Shown here: in pieces, positions 15,337 through 22,450 of the stretch
How the letters are laid out: each line of letters starts with the position of its first letter
How positions within the stretch are numbered: position 1 is the stretch's first letter
Assembly (NCBI GenBank): GCA_026003475.1
Contig: BPHJ01000001.1
Coordinates: 320,545 to 384,544 of the forward strand
DNA length: 64,000 bases
Direction: 5' to 3'
Origin: Candidatus Kapaibacterium sp.
GTDB taxonomy: Bacteria > Bacteroidota > Ignavibacteria > Kapaibacteriales > NICIL-2
Notes under the pieces: model-generated
Database searches by the model: none
Seen by the model: the letters and a program-made list of their open reading frames with translations, nothing else
Told to the model about the DNA's origin: nothing
Program-made: the position numbers and the translations under genes

Positions 15337-16629
15337 CTACAAACCGTTGACGATCGTCTGCAGGCGACGTTCGATTTCGGCGCAGGCTTCATCTTCGAGC
15401 GCGTAGAGGTAGTCAGCGTTGCCGCCGATGGTCTCATTGGGTGAGGATTCGATGGCGTGCGCGATGGTACGGTACGCACTGCGAAAGCTTTCGCCGCTTG
15501 TCCGCATCTGTGCGTGGATGCGTTCGACGCTCCAGATCGCGCGGAATTCGGGACGGTCGAGCGCGCCCTCCACTGGCTCGATGTTGGGAAGAACGAGGCT
15601 TGCAATGCTGAGGCACTCGTCGAAATCATCCCAGGCTGGAAGAAGCAGCTCCTTGAGAAGTTGGTAATCCCGGTGATAGCCCGAGGGTAAGTTCGTCGTC
15701 ACGGCAGAAATGTCGTGGGGGAGGACTTGGAGCCTGTTGAAGCGTGCGCGGAGCAGTTCGAACACGTCGGGATTTTGCTTGTGTGGCATGATGCTCGATC
15801 CGGTCGAGAACTGCGATGGTAGCCGCAGAAGCTGGTAGCCCGGCGATAGGGAGAGCACCACATCCATCGCCAGTCGGGCGAGCGTTGCCGATACAGATGC
15901 CAGTGCAAACGCCACGGCACGTTCGAGCTTGCCGCGGAGCAATTGCGCTGCAGCGGGACTTGCAACAATCTGAGAAAATCCGAGCAGCGCTGCTGTTCGC
16001 CGCCGATCAATGGGAAAACTACTCCCGTAGCCAGCGGCTGTGCCGAGGGGATTCTTGTCGGTCAACCGTGCTACAGGATCAAAAAATGCGATGTCCTCGA
16101 GCAGCGATTCCGCAAACGCGAGCATCCAGAGACCGAACGTTGTTGGCATTGCGGCTTGCATGTGTGTCATGCCGGGCATGAGGATGCGGCGGTGCTTCTG
16201 TGCCCAGGAGAGCATGGATTCGGCAAAAGCAGCAATTTGCCGGGTCGTTTGGGAAATGCGATCGCGGATGAGCAGCGCCAATGCTGTCAGCACCTGATCG
16301 TTGCGGGAGCGTGCCGTGTGGATGTTTTCGCCAATGGTGCCGAGTGCGTTGATTAGTTCCAGCTCGAGCTGCGAATGGACGTCCTCGATGCCGTCGGCGA
16401 TGCGAAATCTGCCAGCCTCGATCTGCTCGGTAATGTGCTGCAATTGTGCGACAAGTTGTGCTGCATGGTCTGCTGGAATGATGCCGCATTCCCCGAGCAT
16501 CTGGGCATGGGCGATGGATGCGCGCACGTCGTAGGGAGCCAATGCTATATCGAGTTCACGGTCGCGCCCGATCGTGAATGCTTCAATGCGCCGGTCAAGG
16601 GCGGTTGTCTGCTTTTCCCAGAGTTTCAT
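15337..16629 (-). CDS. argH: Argininosuccinate lyase
   Basis: A 430-residue member of the fumarase/aspartase superfamily that splits argininosuccinate into arginine and fumarate, the last step of arginine synthesis. The signature GSSIMPHKQNPDV carries the flexible-loop catalytic Ser, and the ENIHTARSRNDQV stretch is the other classical ArgH motif. Length is close to the usual 450-470, slightly short. Its ATG (16629) overlaps the stop of the upstream deacylase gene as ATGA, making it the last gene of the seven-gene arginine operon running from 22183. It starts MKLWEKQTTALDRR, typical for Bacteroidota ArgH, which begin with a LWxK segment. Confidence 0.96.
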   Translation of the reverse strand: MKLWEKQTTALDRRIEAFTIGRDRELDIALAPYDVRASIAHAQMLGECGIIPADHAAQLVAQLQHITEQIEAGRFRIADGIEDVHSQLELELINALGTIGENIHTARSRNDQVLTALALLIRDRISQTTRQIAAFAESMLSWAQKHRRILMPGMTHMQAAMPTTFGLWMLAFAESLLEDIAFFDPVARLTDKNPLGTAAGYGSSFPIDRRRTAALLGFSQIVASPAAAQLLRGKLERAVAFALASVSATLARLAMDVVLSLSPGYQLLRLPSQFSTGSSIMPHKQNPDVFELLRARFNRLQVLPHDISAVTTNLPSGYHRDYQLLKELLLPAWDDFDECLSIASLVLPNIEPVEGALDRPEFRAIWSVERIHAQMRTSGESFRSAYRTIAHAIESSPNETIGGNADYLYALEDEACAEIERRLQTIVNGL

Positions 16630-17699
16630 GGTTGGTATGCAAGGTGTTCAACAGGTTCATCTGCGAGTGCCATCAGAAGCCGGCGGTAGCCTTCGATGCC
16701 CTCGCGGAGCTCCGACAGCAGGACGTATTCATCGGCCGTGTGGGAACGCTGCGTATCGCCGGGACCCATCTTGATGCTTGGCATCGGAAGAAGGGCTTGG
16801 TCAGAAAGTGTCTGCGATGCAATGCACTCAACTCCTAAGCGCCGAGCTACCCGTAGGAGCACGTGCCCATCAGGCAAGCGGGACGGCCGCAGCCGCAGCG
16901 AGATTCGCTCAATGCGCGACTGCAAGTGCTGCTCGAGCAGGCGGGCAATCTCCTCGTGCGTGTAGGCATCGGTGGTGCGAATATCCACGGTAAAACGGCA
17001 GCGATCAGGAATCACGTTGTGCTGCGAACCGGCCGCAATCACCGTTACAGTTGCACGCACCAGACCAAGCACACTGCTGGCGCGCTCGAATGGCTGGGAA
17101 TGTAACCACGCAATGTCGGCCAGTGCAATGTCAATGGCATTTGTTCCCATGCCGTGCGCTGCATGACCGGTGACGCCCTCGGCAACGCAATGCACGACCA
17201 TCAATCCGCGCTCGGCAATTGCCATGCGCATCGAGGTCGGCTCGCCGACGATTGCAGCATCAATCGGGGGCAAGTGAGAAAGGACGAGCGCGATACCACC
17301 GTCACCGCTGATTTCCTCTTCAGCGCTGGCTGCGAACACAAGATTGAAGGGCAGTTGTTGCTCTCCGAGTTCGGTGAACACAACCGCCAATGCAACCAGA
17401 CTTGCACCTGCATCGTTGCTTCCAAGACCGAAGAGTTTTTCCTCTTCGATGGTCGGCTGATGTGGATCGCGCGTCCATCCTTGCGATGGCTGGACAGTAT
17501 CCAGATGCGAATTCAGCAGGAGCGTGGGCTTGGATGGATCAAACGCTGGTGACCGCGTCCAAACGTTATTGCCCACGCGGTGGGGTGGAAATCCGCGCTG
17601 GGCCAGAAAATCGGCGAGGATATCGGCACGGGCACCTTCCTGGCGACTTGGTGCAGGCGTGGCAATCAGACGACACAGAAGGTCGAGCGCATCGTTCAT
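16626..17699 (-). CDS. M20 family deacylase, probable N-acyl-L-citrulline deacylase (ArgE-like)
   Basis: About 357 residues; ATG at 17699 is fixed by an ATGA overlap with argB. Metal-site motifs of M20 peptidases are visible: LLNSHLDTV (first His/Asp), GLGSNDAGASL (bridging Asp), SAEEEISGDGG (catalytic and ligand Glu) and KMGPGD near the end. The GLGSNDAGAS form is the one I associate with Bacteroidota ArgE-like proteins. Because the operon carries an N-acylornithine carbamoyltransferase instead of OTCase, the expected substrate is N-succinyl- or N-acetyl-citrulline, giving citrulline for ArgG. That substrate is inferred from context; classical acetylornithine deacetylase activity is the alternative. 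It lies between argB and argH. Confidence 0.88.
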   Translation of the reverse strand: MNDALDLLCRLIATPAPSRQEGARADILADFLAQRGFPPHRVGNNVWTRSPAFDPSKPTLLLNSHLDTVQPSQGWTRDPHQPTIEEEKLFGLGSNDAGASLVALAVVFTELGEQQLPFNLVFAASAEEEISGDGGIALVLSHLPPIDAAIVGEPTSMRMAIAERGLMVVHCVAEGVTGHAAHGMGTNAIDIALADIAWLHSQPFERASSVLGLVRATVTVIAAGSQHNVIPDRCRFTVDIRTTDAYTHEEIARLLEQHLQSRIERISLRLRPSRLPDGHVLLRVARRLGVECIASQTLSDQALLPMPSIKMGPGDTQRSHTADEYVLLSELREGIEGYRRLLMALADEPVEHLAYQP

Positions 17700-18472
17700 G
17701 GTCGTTCGGTTGCATGGGTGATGATGCGTGTTCCTCTGCGGTGCGGCAATGCCTGCGCTGAAATGACACGAACGCAGACCCCGCACTCAGCAGCGGAGAA
17801 TGCTGCATCGAGCTTGGGGAGCATACCATCGCGGATAACTCCGCTGGTGCTCAGCGCCGCGTAGCTTGTGCGATCGAGTTCGCTCAGGAGTTGACCGTCA
17901 GCACCGAGAACGCCGCCGCTGGATGTGCAGAAGGAAAGTTCAACCGACCATCCGTGGGCGGTGAACATTACTGCAACCGTTGCGGCAATGGTATCGGCGT
18001 TTGTGTTGAGCAACTGCCCCCATCCGTCGTAGGTCAGCGGAGACATCACCGGTGTATAGCCATGCTCCAGCAAGCGCATGAGCATGGTGGCATCGGTACG
18101 CGTCGGGTCGCCCACCAGACCGAAGTCAATGCTGCCTGTGCGACGAGTGGCACAAATTGTTCCTCCATCGAATGCTGCAATGCCAACGGCACGGATACCG
18201 GCTGCCAGTAGTGCCGCGACCAAGCGTTTATTGAGGATGCCAGCCGTTGTCATCACCAGAACGTCGAGCATTGCGTGGTCGGTGATGCGGCGTCCATTGT
18301 GGAAGTGTGGGGATAGTCCGAGCCGTTGTGCGAGCTCAGTGGTTTGTCGTCCGCCACCATGGACAATCACCAGAGGTTGTGGCAGCAGTGCAATGCGCCG
18401 TGCAAGCACTCGAATGTGATCATCGTCGCCGAGCAACTCACCGCCGATTTTGAGAACGTGGACCGACTTCAT
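17696..18472 (-). CDS. argB: N-acylglutamate kinase (ArgB family)
   Basis: About 258 residues, start ATG at 18472 fixed by an ATGA overlap with argF'. The protein begins MKSVHVLKIGGELLGDDD, with the amino-acid-kinase glycine loop KIGGE, followed by VIVHGGGRQTTELAQRLG and, later, the LLNTNADTIAATVA nucleotide-site segment. It phosphorylates N-acetylglutamate or, in Bacteroidota with N-succinyl intermediates, N-succinylglutamate. It lacks the N-terminal helix found in arginine-inhibited hexameric kinases, suggesting it is not feedback-inhibited through that helix; control may instead lie in the operon leader. Substrate choice (acetyl versus succinyl) cannot be read from this protein. Confidence 0.93.
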   Translation of the reverse strand: MKSVHVLKIGGELLGDDDHIRVLARRIALLPQPLVIVHGGGRQTTELAQRLGLSPHFHNGRRITDHAMLDVLVMTTAGILNKRLVAALLAAGIRAVGIAAFDGGTICATRRTGSIDFGLVGDPTRTDATMLMRLLEHGYTPVMSPLTYDGWGQLLNTNADTIAATVAVMFTAHGWSVELSFCTSSGGVLGADGQLLSELDRTSYAALSTSGVIRDGMLPKLDAAFSAAECGVCVRVISAQALPHRRGTRIITHATERP

Positions 18473-19416
18473 TGGGCTTCCAGGATGGTTCGCAAGACTG
18501 CTTGTGCTGCCGGAACGCGGTTGGCAGCTTGCTCGATGATGATGGACGAAGGAGAGTCCAGCACTGCATCGCTGGCAATCATGTTCCGCCGAATCGGAAG
18601 GCAATGCATGAAGTAGGCGTTGCGTGTTCGCGCCATCTTTTCGGGGGTGATTTGCCAGCGCATGTCTTGGCAGAGGATTTTGCCGTAGTCGTGATAGCTT
18701 GACCAGTTTTTCGCATAGACAAAGTCAGCGCCGTCGAATGCTGCATCCTGGTCGTGTGTGATCGTTGCGCCTGCGGTGAAGCGTTCGTCCAGCTCGTATC
18801 CTGGCGGGTGAGTGATGACCAGTTCGTACCCCATCGCGATTGCCCACTCTGCAAATGAATTCGGCACTGCCTGCGGAAGTGCTTTCGGATGAGGAGCCCA
18901 GCTAAGGACAACGCGCGGCCTGCTTGTGCGTTTGAAATGCTCAATGGTCAGCATGTCCGCCAAGGACTGCAAGGGATGGCGTGTGGCCGATTCCAAGCTG
19001 ATGACGGGTACACCAGCACACGCGACGAAGCGCTCCAGTATGGTTTCGGCATAATCCTCGTCGCGGTTGGTAAGCTGTGCAAAGGAACGAATGCCGAGAA
19101 TATCAACGTACCGACCCAGCACAGCAGCAGCTTCGCGAATGTGCTCTGCAGCAGCACCATCCATGACGACGCCATCGCGCGTTTCCAAGAGCCACGTATC
19201 GCTACCGGGACTCATGCTCACAACATCCATCCCCAGCAGCGTCGCGGCACGATGCGTGCTGACTCTGGTTCGCAGACTCGGATTGAAAAACACCATGCCG
19301 AGCGTGCGTCCGCGCCCGAGCGATGACCAAGCGTTGGGAGTGCGCTTGCATTCGGCTGCACGCTCGAGGAGCAGCGCAAGGTCAGGAACGTCAGCAAGTG
19401 CGGTAAAATGGTTCAT
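18469..19416 (-). CDS. argF': N-acylornithine carbamoyltransferase, predicted N-succinyl-L-ornithine type
   Basis: A 315-residue transcarbamylase. FFNPSLRTRVST (43-54) is the carbamoyl-phosphate site and FMHCLPIRRN (269-278) the second signature. SWAPHPKALPQAVPNSFAEW (172-191) and YAKNW (234-238) match the Bacteroides fragilis N-succinylornithine enzyme as I recall it, and the two align without gaps to residue 90. Ordinary OTCase has a different ornithine loop. At position 90, Pro in B. fragilis and Glu (residue 92) in the Xanthomonas acetylornithine enzyme, this protein has Ala (MDGAAAEH). Published mutants E92A/P/S/V turn the acetyl enzyme into a succinyl enzyme, so succinylornithine is predicted here. 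Its gene lies 18 bp after argC and overlaps argB by ATGA. Confidence 0.93.
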   Translation of the reverse strand: MNHFTALADVPDLALLLERAAECKRTPNAWSSLGRGRTLGMVFFNPSLRTRVSTHRAATLLGMDVVSMSPGSDTWLLETRDGVVMDGAAAEHIREAAAVLGRYVDILGIRSFAQLTNRDEDYAETILERFVACAGVPVISLESATRHPLQSLADMLTIEHFKRTSRPRVVLSWAPHPKALPQAVPNSFAEWAIAMGYELVITHPPGYELDERFTAGATITHDQDAAFDGADFVYAKNWSSYHDYGKILCQDMRWQITPEKMARTRNAYFMHCLPIRRNMIASDAVLDSPSSIIIEQAANRVPAAQAVLRTILEAQ

Positions 19417-19434: not shown

Positions 19435-20373
19435 TTACCATCCGATTGCACGCATGGGAAGCCCAGCGCATTCATCAATGCCGAGCGCGAGATTCATGTT
19501 CTGCACAGCTTGCGCTGCAGCACCTTTGAGCATGTTGTCGAGAACGCAAACAATAGCAGCAGTCTTGCCGTCGGTGCTGCAGTGGAGGAGTGCACGGGAA
19601 GTACCGACGATGCGTTTGAGGTCGGGACTGTCGTCAGATAGCTGCACCAGCGGATGCGACTGGTAGTACTGCCGGTAGAGTGCCGTCAGCGACTCCTGAT
19701 CGAGTGGCAATGCCACAACGACCGTCACGATGATGCCACGGGTGAACGGTCCGCGATAGGGCACAAAGTGTAGCTGCGCATCGGTGTTGAGTGCGGTGAG
19801 AACCTCGCGCGCATGGCGATGGCGAAGAATGCTGTAGGCCTGGACGTTTGCATGGCGCCAGGAAAAGTGGAGCGTCGGGCTCAGCTCTGCGCCTGCGCCT
19901 GTTGAACCGGTGATGCCGCTGGCATGGATCGTTGATGGCAGTAGCTGGTTTGTGGCCAGTGGTAGCAGTGGAAGGAGCAGCGCCGTTGCAAAGCATCCGG
20001 GATTGGCAATCCGGCGTGCACGGCCGATTCGATCACGATTGAGCTCTGGCAAGCCGTACACAAAGTCGGGGTCAGCACGATGGTCGCTGCTTAGGTCAAT
20101 GATCACGCTGCGACGGAGATGCGGGTACTGCTCCAGGATGTGATGTGTCGTGCCGTGCGGTACCGCCAGAAAGACAACCGCCGCGTCGCCCGGTTCGGCA
20201 TGCAGTTCCAGATCAACGATGCCAGCAAGGTCGGGGGCCACTGCGCTTAGCGGTTTGCCAGCGTGTGTGCGGCTTGTTGCATAGGCAAGCTTGGCGTGTG
20301 GGTGGAACGCCAGGATGCGCACCAGCTCCGTTCCAACAAATCCCGATGCTCCGATGATGCCAACCTGAGTCAT
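19435..20373 (-). CDS. argC: N-acyl-gamma-glutamyl-phosphate reductase
   Basis: About 312 residues; ATG at 20373 is fixed by an ATGA overlap with argG. The Rossmann motif GIIGASGFVGTEL is at the N-terminus, the catalytic Cys lies in ANPGCFAT near residue 143, and the conserved HxxE-like region (THHILEQYP) and FVPYRGPFTRGI follow. It reduces the N-acylglutamyl phosphate made by ArgB to the semialdehyde. The next step requires an aminotransferase (ArgD), which is not in this operon or elsewhere in the window. Downstream argF' starts 18 bp after its stop, the only real gap inside the operon. Confidence 0.95.
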   Translation of the reverse strand: MTQVGIIGASGFVGTELVRILAFHPHAKLAYATSRTHAGKPLSAVAPDLAGIVDLELHAEPGDAAVVFLAVPHGTTHHILEQYPHLRRSVIIDLSSDHRADPDFVYGLPELNRDRIGRARRIANPGCFATALLLPLLPLATNQLLPSTIHASGITGSTGAGAELSPTLHFSWRHANVQAYSILRHRHAREVLTALNTDAQLHFVPYRGPFTRGIIVTVVVALPLDQESLTALYRQYYQSHPLVQLSDDSPDLKRIVGTSRALLHCSTDGKTAAIVCVLDNMLKGAAAQAVQNMNLALGIDECAGLPMRAIGW

Positions 20374-21566
20374 AGTTGATCGGCGTTGATGGTGTGGTAG
20401 ATGCGCAATTGCTGAGCTGCGATGCGTGCAAATCCGCGGACGTCGGCAGCGCTCCAATCGCTGGATTGCTCGCCGTACATCCCAAAGCGTGGATGCATCA
20501 GATCGTGGGGGGAAACGATTCCCTCGACTTCGAATCGCTTGGGTTCAAGGCAGACGAAGACATCGCCAGTGACGGTCTGTTGCGTTGTCTCGAGCATCGC
20601 TTCGATGGCACGTAGAGCGGGTTCTTCGAACATTCCCTCGTGGAGAAGTTGCCCGTACCACTGCGCGATCTGCTCTTTGAGGATCAATTGCCATTTGGTG
20701 AGGGTGTGCTTTTCCAGCGCGTGATGTGCTGCGATCATGAGCAGTGGTGCTGCAGCCTGGAAGCCGACGCGTCCTTTGGTGCCGATGATGGTATCCCCGA
20801 CGTGCATACCTCTGCCAATGCCGTACGGTGCGGCGATATCTTCCAGTCCGCCGATCGCCTGCACCGGATGCTCGAACAGTGTTCCATCAAAGCCGACAAG
20901 CTCACCGCAAGCGAAGTGGAGCGTCACGCGACGGTTGTCAGTAGCAGTGATCGGTGTCGGGAAGGCATCATCTGGCAGCGGCTTGTGCGAGGTCAACGTT
21001 TGATGCCCGCCGATGGTTGTACCCCACAAGCCACGGTTGATCGAGTAGGGCGGGCGATTGTACTCGAGTGCGACGCCGTGCTTATGGAGGAAGGCCAATG
21101 CCTGTTCACGGGTGATGTTGTGGTCGCGGATCGGAGTGACAATCTCCATTTCAGGCGCCAGCACACTCCAGGAGGCATCGAAGCGGATCTGATCGTTGCC
21201 TGCGCCGGTGCTTCCATGCGCTAAGGCCTGTGCACCGAGTGCTCGTGCATGCTGAGCGATAAGGCGTGCTTGAATAGCGCGTTCAGCACTGACCGAGAGT
21301 GGATAGGTACCGTACCGGAGCACGTTGCCAAAGACCAAGTACCGCACACACAGCTCGTAGAGCGGACGCGTTCCATCCAGTGTCGTGTGGGAGGTGGCTC
21401 CAAGCTCGAGGGCACGGTGTTCGATTGCGGCTCGTTCATCGGCGGTGAATCCACCGGTATCCACGGTGACGGTGTGGACTTCCTCCCAACCATACTCGGC
21501 GCGGAGTGCCAGCAGACAGTACGAGGTATCCAACCCACCGCTGAAAGCAAGGACGATGCGTTTCAT
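20370..21566 (-). CDS. argG: Argininosuccinate synthase
   Basis: A 398-residue ATP-pyrophosphatase that condenses citrulline and aspartate. The P-loop LAFSGGLDTSYCL is at residues 6-18, with AHGSTGAGNDQIRFD near 115-129 as the citrulline/aspartate-binding segment. The sequence is of the shorter Bacteroidota type. Start ATG at 21566 overlaps the stop of the GNAT gene as ATGA, and its own stop overlaps argC in the same way, so translation should be coupled across the start of the operon. Confidence 0.95.
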   Translation of the reverse strand: MKRIVLAFSGGLDTSYCLLALRAEYGWEEVHTVTVDTGGFTADERAAIEHRALELGATSHTTLDGTRPLYELCVRYLVFGNVLRYGTYPLSVSAERAIQARLIAQHARALGAQALAHGSTGAGNDQIRFDASWSVLAPEMEIVTPIRDHNITREQALAFLHKHGVALEYNRPPYSINRGLWGTTIGGHQTLTSHKPLPDDAFPTPITATDNRRVTLHFACGELVGFDGTLFEHPVQAIGGLEDIAAPYGIGRGMHVGDTIIGTKGRVGFQAAAPLLMIAAHHALEKHTLTKWQLILKEQIAQWYGQLLHEGMFEEPALRAIEAMLETTQQTVTGDVFVCLEPKRFEVEGIVSPHDLMHPRFGMYGEQSSDWSAADVRGFARIAAQQLRIYHTINADQL

Positions 21567-22183
21567 AGGTGCACTGAGTCAGTGGTGTCTAGTGCTAAGG
21601 GAAGGCTGTACTCCATGTGTTCAGCCGGATCATAGAGCATCCCGGTACAAAGGCACATGGTGCGACCGGTGCGCTGGAGAATGTCGTAGTTGCGGCAGGA
21701 TTGACAGCCGCGCCAGAACTCCTCGTCGGTGGTCAATTCGGAGAAGTGGACGGGACGGTAACCCAGCTCGGAGTTGAGCTTCATCACGGCGGCGCTGGTA
21801 GTAATGCCGAAAATTTTTGCGTTCGGGTAAAGCTGGCGCGACCGTTCAAAGGCAGCACGCTTGATTCGCCGTGCGATGCCAAGTTTGCGGTAGTCCGGCG
21901 CGACGATCAGCCCAGAATTGGCAACGTATCGCCCGTGCTCCCAGGTTTCGATGTAACAGAATCCAACCAGCCTACCCTGCCAGTGTGCAATGATAGCTTT
22001 TCCTTCGCGCATCTTCTGGCGAATGTAGTCCGGTGGGCGCTTGGCAATTCCTGTCCCTCGCTGGAGCGCTGATTGCTCGATGAGCGCTGAAATCTCCTCG
22101 GCAAAATGCTCGTGCTCGGCGGTGGCAACCTCGACGGTGATTGCCTCCGCAGACAGGGGCGGTTGGAGCGTTGCAGTGTCCAT
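21563..22183 (-). CDS. GNAT-family acyltransferase, likely N-acylglutamate synthase of the arginine operon
   Basis: A 206-residue GNAT protein and the first structural gene of the arginine operon. The acetyl-CoA pyrophosphate loop appears as VAPDYRKLGIARRI near residues 94-107. A C-terminal Cys cluster, WRGCQSCRNYDIL then MCLCTGMLYDP, is conserved in Bacteroidota proteins found next to argG and may bind metal. Such GNATs are proposed to be the acetyl- or succinyl-glutamate synthase that starts the pathway; here that role is inferred from position and from the absence of argA or argJ. Start ATG at 22183 follows the attenuator U-tract by about 17 bp. Its stop overlaps argG by ATGA. Confidence 0.82.
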   Translation of the reverse strand: MDTATLQPPLSAEAITVEVATAEHEHFAEEISALIEQSALQRGTGIAKRPPDYIRQKMREGKAIIAHWQGRLVGFCYIETWEHGRYVANSGLIVAPDYRKLGIARRIKRAAFERSRQLYPNAKIFGITTSAAVMKLNSELGYRPVHFSELTTDEEFWRGCQSCRNYDILQRTGRTMCLCTGMLYDPAEHMEYSLPLALDTTDSVHL

Positions 22184-22200: not shown

Positions 22201-22248
22201 GAACAAAAACGCAAAACGCCGCTTCCCGATGGCACAGGAAGCGGCGTT
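22201..22248 (-). terminator. Intrinsic terminator (attenuator) ahead of the arginine operon
   Basis: On the minus strand, AACGCCGCTTCC and GGAAGCGGCGTT form a perfect 12-bp stem (22215-22226 with 22237-22248) around a 10-nt loop, followed at once by a U-rich tract (TTTTGCGTTTTTG). It stands about 17 bp before the first gene and after the Arg-rich leader ORF, so it can only act on transcripts of the operon itself. The plus strand has no T-tract after the stem. Read-through would be needed for arg gene expression, as in classical amino-acid attenuation. Confidence 0.85.
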
Positions 22249-22270
22249 CAGTGTTGAATGTGTCGGTTGC

Positions 22271-22381
22271 TCAGGGGTCTTCGATCTGCGAAACGTTCCG
22301 TCCCGACAATACGCGCGCCTTCCCATGCCACAGGAGGCAGGGTCGTCGCAACGTTCGTCGTCGGCAATTTCCGCAGAACAT
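22271..22381 (-). CDS. Arginine-rich leader peptide of the arginine operon
   Basis: A 36-codon ORF, ATG at 22381, stop TGA at 22271-22273, lying between a plausible promoter and the attenuator. The peptide begins MFCGNCRRRTLRRPC: codons 7, 8, 9, 12 and 13 are all CGA arginine codons, and two more Arg follow at 23 and 28. Such a run directly upstream of arginine genes is the mark of a leader peptide at which ribosomes stall when Arg-tRNA is scarce. Just after the Arg codons, GGGAAGGCGCGCG (22312-22324) can pair, with bulges, with the 5' arm of the terminator, giving a possible antiterminator. No strong Shine-Dalgarno precedes the ATG. The identification is from sequence pattern only; translation is not shown. 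No other gene is seen in the 380 bp between the GNAT and thiolase genes. Confidence 0.75.
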   Translation of the reverse strand: MFCGNCRRRTLRRPCLLWHGKARVLSGRNVSQIEDP

Positions 22382-22418
22382 GGAAGCGTCTATTGATTCA
22401 TCGGAAAAACAAGCGGCG

Positions 22419-22450
22419 CGAAAATACAGCGCCAGCTGGATATGTGCAAA
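22419..22450 (-). promoter_or_regulatory. Candidate promoter of the arginine operon leader
   Basis: On the minus strand TTTG is followed after 20 nt by TATTTTCG, one mismatch from the Bacteroidota -33/-7 consensus (TTTG, 19-21 nt, TAnnTTTG). The same stretch also reads as TTGCAC, 17 nt, TATTTT for a sigma70-type promoter. Transcription would start some 30 nt before the leader-peptide ATG. Not tested; inferred from pattern and position. Confidence 0.5.

Follow-up and report, generated by a model that had tools for sequence, protein, structure and literature searches.

A candidate ribosome-mediated arginine attenuator ahead of the arginine operon in a Candidatus Kapaibacterium lineage

Leader peptides and the control of arginine genes

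The textbook amino-acid attenuators are those of the his, trp, leu, ilv, thr and phe operons, and arginine operons are usually assigned to the ArgR repressor or to T-boxes. A short peptide upstream of an arginine gene is known from fungi, but this arginine attenuator peptide (arg-2/CPA1) is eukaryotic and translational and causes arrest through the peptide together with arginine, unlike the leader described here. In the Salmonella orf34/speF leader, arginine is sensed through pausing of the ribosome at a pair of adjacent Arg codons in a short ORF, but the gene controlled is that of ornithine decarboxylase rather than an arginine biosynthesis operon, and Rho, a structure that sequesters the ribosome-binding site and RNase G are involved (PMC6386406). 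The Arg codons in the uORF of Staphylococcus aureus rbfL sense arginine limitation, but there the ribosome-binding site of a biofilm regulator is blocked and low arginine lowers expression (PMC13009471). Pseudomonas aeruginosa carA has a leader peptide ahead of a carbamoyl phosphate synthase gene that is under arginine and pyrimidine control, but the attenuation is described as pyrimidine control, and arginine as acting at the transcriptional level (cited in PMC4997734). A survey of Actinobacteria saw no arginine attenuator in that group and named arginine T-boxes elsewhere (PMC1262725), and a transcriptome study of Flavobacterium psychrophilum describes leader-peptide attenuation before amino-acid operons in a passage that does not name arginine, which might be among them (PMC9723704). 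In the open-access literature searched, we found no bacterial arginine attenuator acting on an arginine operon, and the first-pass annotation of this DNA knew of no described case in this lineage; a precedent may have been missed.

The locus described here is in a window of 64,000 nt, the whole stretch of DNA analysed, which is part of a single 2.16-Mb contig from the Candidatus Kapaibacterium lineage of Bacteroidota. Like the trp/his-type attenuators of Proteobacteria (also leu, thr, ilv and phe), it combines a run of codons for the operon's own product in a leader ORF with three competing helices and an intrinsic terminator before the structural genes. It differs from them in the amino acid sensed and in its Bacteroidota host, and is unrelated to them in sequence. 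From the parts and their order, their conservation, the exclusive pairings, the placement of the Arg codons relative to those pairings and the absence of ArgR, all of which were computed directly, we infer that this is very probably a ribosome-mediated transcription attenuator that senses arginyl-tRNA, with leader translation, stalling, termination and read-through taking place in the cell. The evidence supports an arginine-specific attenuator that would be new in its amino acid and lineage and known in its mechanism.

The arginine operon and its leader

The leader precedes seven close or overlapping genes in the order GNAT-argG-argC-argF'-argB-argE-argH (Table 1). The first three had been recognized as the operon in the first-pass annotation, which stopped short of the remaining four. 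The product of the first gene, a GNAT acetyltransferase, likely supplies N-acetylglutamate. The only gene upstream of the leader, a thiolase named by its sequence, is divergent and points away from it.

Read directly from the minus strand, the 36 leader codons encode MFCGNCRRRTLRRPCLLWHGKARVLSGRNVSQIEDP, with CGA at codons 7, 8, 9, 12 and 13, as the first-pass annotation had described. It had also asked for a count of CGA use: CGA accounts for 12.6% of Arg codons in the 43 window genes that were counted, and under that usage alone five CGA codons out of five would be expected with p ~3e-5. A candidate promoter was likewise found where one had been proposed, and the TAT(A/T)TTCGCGCC at this position is common to all five congeners and to a same-family genus, though the match to TTG/TAnnTTTG, which we take to be the Bacteroidota consensus, is imperfect. 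A sigma-70 promoter scan returned no site at the leader, as is expected in Bacteroidota.

Table 1. Positions of the predicted attenuator parts and operon genes in the window, and of hairpins at other loci
Feature	Position	Strand	Remarks
Candidate Bacteroidota-type promoter	22419..22449	minus	TTG 22449-22447, 20-nt spacer, TATTTTCG 22426-22419
Leader peptide ORF	22381-22271	minus	ATG at 22381, stop ends 22271; 36 codons; sequence reading
Arg codons 7-9 (CGA CGA CGA)	22355..22363	minus	kept in all five species
Arg codons 12-13 (CGA CGA)	22343..22348	minus	kept in every one of the five species, two of which have three codons
Arm 1: Arg codons and CCCTGCC	22336..22363	minus	consensus fold with two-sided changes; folding
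Arm 2, GTGGCATGGGAAGGCGCGCGT, antiterminator strand	22311..22331	minus	duplex with arm 3; contains Trp-His codons
Arm 3: 5' arm of the terminator with some of its loop	22230..22247	minus	sequence, folding
Predicted intrinsic terminator hairpin (arms 3 and 4)	22214..22249	minus	perfect 12-bp stem; -27.3 kcal/mol
U-rich tail, TGCGTTTTTG	22204..22213	minus	sequence reading; terminator scan
GNAT acetyltransferase, first operon gene	21563..22183	minus	relative of GNAT PA4794, E 2e-8; conserved across Bacteroidota
argG	20370..21566	minus	best match; below curated cut-offs
argC	19435..20379	minus	above curated cut-off
N-acetylornithine carbamoyltransferase (argF')	18469..19416	minus	above curated cut-off
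argB	17696..18472	minus	above curated cut-off
argE-like deacylase	16626..17786	minus	ArgE/DapE family match
argH	15337..16629	minus	best match; just below curated cut-off
UA(C/U)GU-loop hairpins at L038, L051, L053, L057, L068, L072, L082, L102	~60-155 nt before GNAT match		

ArgR and arginine T-boxes are the common controls of arginine genes, and the searches found no ArgR in this genome and no T-box in the window. The ArgR model PF02863 had no match in the genome itself or in 60 of the 61 genomes searched, with matches in 8 of 14 control genomes, and the model of the ArgR DNA-binding domain gave a sub-threshold match only. Thus, the genome does not encode the repressor that an ArgR-controlled operon would presuppose. 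Searched against Rfam, the window and 14 relatives gave nothing relevant and no family above its gathering score, and the window had no T-box match. Cells of this lineage would probably sense arginine shortage through a stalled ribosome and not through the usual ArgR.

The tRNA-Arg(UCG) that is cognate to CGA is encoded in the genome, as are the ACG, CCG, UCU and CCU species; 12 of the 42 tRNA places listed in this survey have no locus of their own. The earlier suggestion that one tRNA-Arg species may be the sensor stands insofar as the cognate tRNA is present, which makes a single isoacceptor possible. It is weakened by the possibility that CGA is read by tRNA-Arg(ACG) as well, and the need to pair with UUGUCG downstream, rather than codon sensing, may have imposed the all-CGA choice. 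The system permits a direct test of tRNA-Arg(UCG) as the sole sensing isoacceptor.

Sister attenuators of his and leu genes were sought, and the hisG and bacterial leuA models had no match in the genome itself or in two congeners (G000, G003, G005), where other enzyme types are possible. The arginine operon is complete although these models have no match, and the lineage may import histidine and leucine.

Predicted competing helices and their conservation

The predicted terminator, a perfect 12-bp stem with a U-rich tail as first annotated, is the top terminator-like site in 20 kb (15 pairs, nine of them GC, end pairs counted). It ends 30 nt before the GNAT start codon, with ~20 nt between the U tail and that codon, and not ~17 bp before the first gene as had been stated. 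The arm said to pair partly with it (22312-22324) is real but was drawn too short, as its true extent is that of arm 2, which pairs with arm 3 and so takes the entire terminator 5' arm. Arm 1 has as its partners arm 2 and the UUGUCGG that follows (22309-22303). The end-product codon cluster in a short leader ORF and the terminator before the first structural gene complete the usual parts list of an attenuator.

In the window, the duplex of arms 2 and 3 has an energy of -29.8 kcal/mol, which none of 1000 dinucleotide shuffles reached. Across five species, the energies are -32 to -39 kcal/mol for helix 1:2 (arm 1 with arm 2 and UUGUCG), -29.8 to -34.7 kcal/mol for helix 2:3 (arm 2 with the whole terminator 5' arm) and -22 to -32 kcal/mol for helix 3:4, the terminator. 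When dinucleotide shuffles of the leader were folded against arm 3, 0-2 of 1000 matched the helix 2:3 energy in four species and 36 of 1000 did so in G002, where the antiterminator pairing to the terminator 5' arm, mutually exclusive with the terminator in each species, is weaker. As predicted by folding, the three helices are mutually exclusive and make up a trp/his-type switch. At the stage preceding arm 4, the free window RNA contains both pairings (12.1 pairs of 1:2 and 6.6 pairs of 2:3). Once arm 4 is included, equilibrium folding mostly favours the terminator, and the choice must therefore be a kinetic one, as it is in known attenuators.

In the nascent leader RNA, arm 1 would fold onto arm 2, and with arm 2 occupied arm 3 would be free to pair with arm 4, halting the polymerase on the U tract ahead of GNAT. 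Under a shortage of charged tRNA-Arg, the leading ribosome would stall on the CGA codons and open arm 1, allowing arm 2 to capture all of the terminator 5' arm while arm 4 is still to be transcribed; with this antiterminator formed, the polymerase would enter the seven-gene operon. With ample arginine, the ribosome would cross arm 2 and the rest of the leader and the terminator would form. Unlike in the trp/his type, this leader continues for ~18 codons past the start of arm 2, so at high arginine hairpin 1:2 probably reforms and no ribosome would be parked at the stop over arm 2.

Ribosome positions were modelled by removing the RNA upstream of and beneath the ribosome codon by codon and folding the remainder without arm 4. 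With the A site on the Arg cluster, 15-19 arm 2:3 pairs formed in all five species (in G002 with the second cluster only), that is, the control codons are placed so that a ribosome stalled on them would free arm 2. The number fell to ~0 with the ribosome at or just after the Trp-His codons, and the terminator formed with it at the leader stop codon. In most species arm 2 is likewise released by stalls upstream of the Arg cluster; the model thus demonstrates compatibility with Arg sensing, and the fold alone is no proof of specificity.

Comparison of the upstream regions of relatives, which the first-pass annotation had proposed as a check, revealed that hairpin, Arg codon runs and competing pairings are kept, with some changes compensated. 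Four of five congeners have the operon head and all four have the leader, the antiterminator arm and the terminator, so the case that would have told against the attenuator, relatives with the hairpin but not the Arg codons, was not encountered. Their leaders, MLFSIRRRQVRRPCQQWHRVA..., MRLFCSIRRRHVRRSCHQWHRIA..., MTSLLRRRSLRRRPCQQWHGTA... and MASVLRRRSLRRRPCQQWHGTA..., all have GCCGCTTCCT...AGGAAGCGGC and then a U run after them, and lie in comparable open ORFs of 33-36 codons. The Arg codons of the clusters are CGA throughout the genus, the distance between the clusters differs by a whole codon among species, and codons and pairings are kept together in five species. GNAT, argG and the leader are all missing from the fifth congener, whose genome is 99% complete. 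Of the fetched loci, only those of the window and G004 have the thiolase upstream, the leader being kept elsewhere, and the element therefore goes with the arg operon. In the window's own genome a covariance model returned this site (E 6e-32), its shadow on the reverse strand and nothing else; in each of four congeners it gave a single strong site, before the arg operon. Beyond the genus it gave weak matches, none of them at arg genes by tblastn save one weak carbamoyltransferase match, which indicates that this RNA form of the attenuator is genus-specific.

Two-sided changes occur at five consensus-fold pairs, of which four belong to helix 1:2, and in G002 and G005 an A to G change in arm 2 is matched by U to C in arm 3. 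With five sequences and nearly invariant arms, the RNAalifold covariation term is slightly unfavourable, and we regard covariation in the genus as modest, supportive of the predicted fold but not strong. Two other genera of the family have an Arg-rich leader and a CCGCUUC hairpin with a U run, in G006 and G007 a few hundred nt from GNAT; the antiterminator signal is absent in G006, which has leader and hairpin (z 0.02), and weak in G007 (z -2.2). At L024 (1373-1465) a second short ORF, MDTISRIIARRRVVRYSEIIISNIIITSYY, lies between terminator and GNAT, with an equivalent of similar ending in L023, and is possibly a tandem leader.

These comparisons bear on other explanations of the leader. Action through Rho-dependent termination or translation instead of an intrinsic terminator is improbable here given the strong, conserved hairpin and U tract of this genus, even though in family f2 and most other Bacteroidota the hairpins after the Arg leader lack a clear U tract. 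An arginine riboswitch binding the small molecule, or a protein-binding leader, with an incidental coding look, could account for the long, stable hairpin before the terminator (helix 1:2) and its conserved apical sequence. We consider it quite unlikely, as no Rfam family matched, the spacing of the clusters shifts by whole codons, and it is the Arg codons and not a common RNA shape that recur across Bacteroidota. Arrest by the nascent peptide with free arginine, similar to that of the fungal peptide, in place of codon starvation would fit the segment RR(R)PCxxWH, which is alike across the genus, but this segment overlaps RNA arms that need conservation anyway and Arg residues alone are shared phylum-wide, which leaves that explanation very doubtful. 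The least credible explanation is that the hairpin merely terminates a small RNA or an adjacent gene and that the Arg run is a chance product of CGA-rich sequence: intrinsic terminators are common and CGACGA occurs 108 times in the window (both strands counted), but conservation largely refutes it, since the sole upstream gene points away and is replaced in other congeners where the leader stays, and leader and hairpin are kept together, lost together and mutually matched in pairing. The first-pass reading as an attenuator is thus upheld by the conserved parts and pairings of relatives and by the absent ArgR, with leader translation, termination and the response to arginine as its predicted steps in the cell.

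Arg-codon leaders elsewhere in Bacteroidota

Judged from sequence, leaders with Arg codons occur widely ahead of this operon in Bacteroidota and their output structures differ, which goes beyond the first-pass annotation. Counting ORFs with an ATG start that have three or more Arg among six residues and lie within 320 nt upstream of GNAT, we found one at 37 of 80 Bacteroidota loci, against 5.8 in shuffles, and no other amino acid gave an excess of comparable size at the same 80 loci. When only gene starts with at least 150 nt free upstream were considered, 27 of 54 had such an ORF, against 27 of 226 other genes at the same loci (p = 6e-9, an optimistic value as the loci are phylogenetically non-independent); the latter rate means that single Arg-rich ORFs do arise by chance. 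The leader peptides are kept in close relatives (...PERRRPVRL in Siphonobacter; ...DFRRRCYRE or CFRE in Labilibaculum) and across the phylum have Arg residues in common but no shared peptide. The Flavobacterium loci and most of the Bacteroidales loci from the 80-locus set showed no Arg leader.

Most of these leaders have no obvious intrinsic terminator. In family f2, of the same order, leaders such as ...RSDRRRLPLREPGQ... with CGACGACGA occur at the eleven aligned loci. The loop segment GCUGCG(A/G)GA, immediately behind the Arg codons, shows covariation with UC(U/C)CGCAGC further downstream, the changing pair being A-U in four and G-C in seven (alignment A3, columns 51-59 and 113-121; L007, L009, L010 and others). 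This hairpin has no U tract after it, and the loop pairing together with helix 1:2 would form a pseudoknot.

On balance, we favour the view that the Arg-codon leaders of the GNAT-headed arginine operon represent an old type of arginine control, widespread in Bacteroidota, that stands in for ArgR where it is absent. One sensor logic would then serve varied outputs, namely an intrinsic terminator in this genus and apparently in Labilibaculum, a covarying hairpin without a U tract in f2 and UAYGU-loop hairpins in Cytophagales. If true, a conserved arginine attenuator without ArgR would explain how arginine synthesis is controlled in those lineages, enlarge the scope of leader-peptide control over amino-acid operons in a phylum that is little studied, and provide a case of one sensor kept while the output structure changed.

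In some f2 genomes (L011, L017, L021, L022), GNAT lies directly behind a purE-like gene, recognized by eye, with no room for a leader. At the Labilibaculum loci L041, L044 and L058, the last part of the Arg leader ORF overlaps with a terminator-like hairpin that has a U run (GTGCTTAACAGCAGTAGCACTTTTTT in L041). Cytophagales-type loci have UA(C/U)GU-loop hairpins with 7-8 bp stems of varying sequence between the Arg leader, or its place, and GNAT; these were present at 12 of 80 loci and in 47 of 1775 control stretches.
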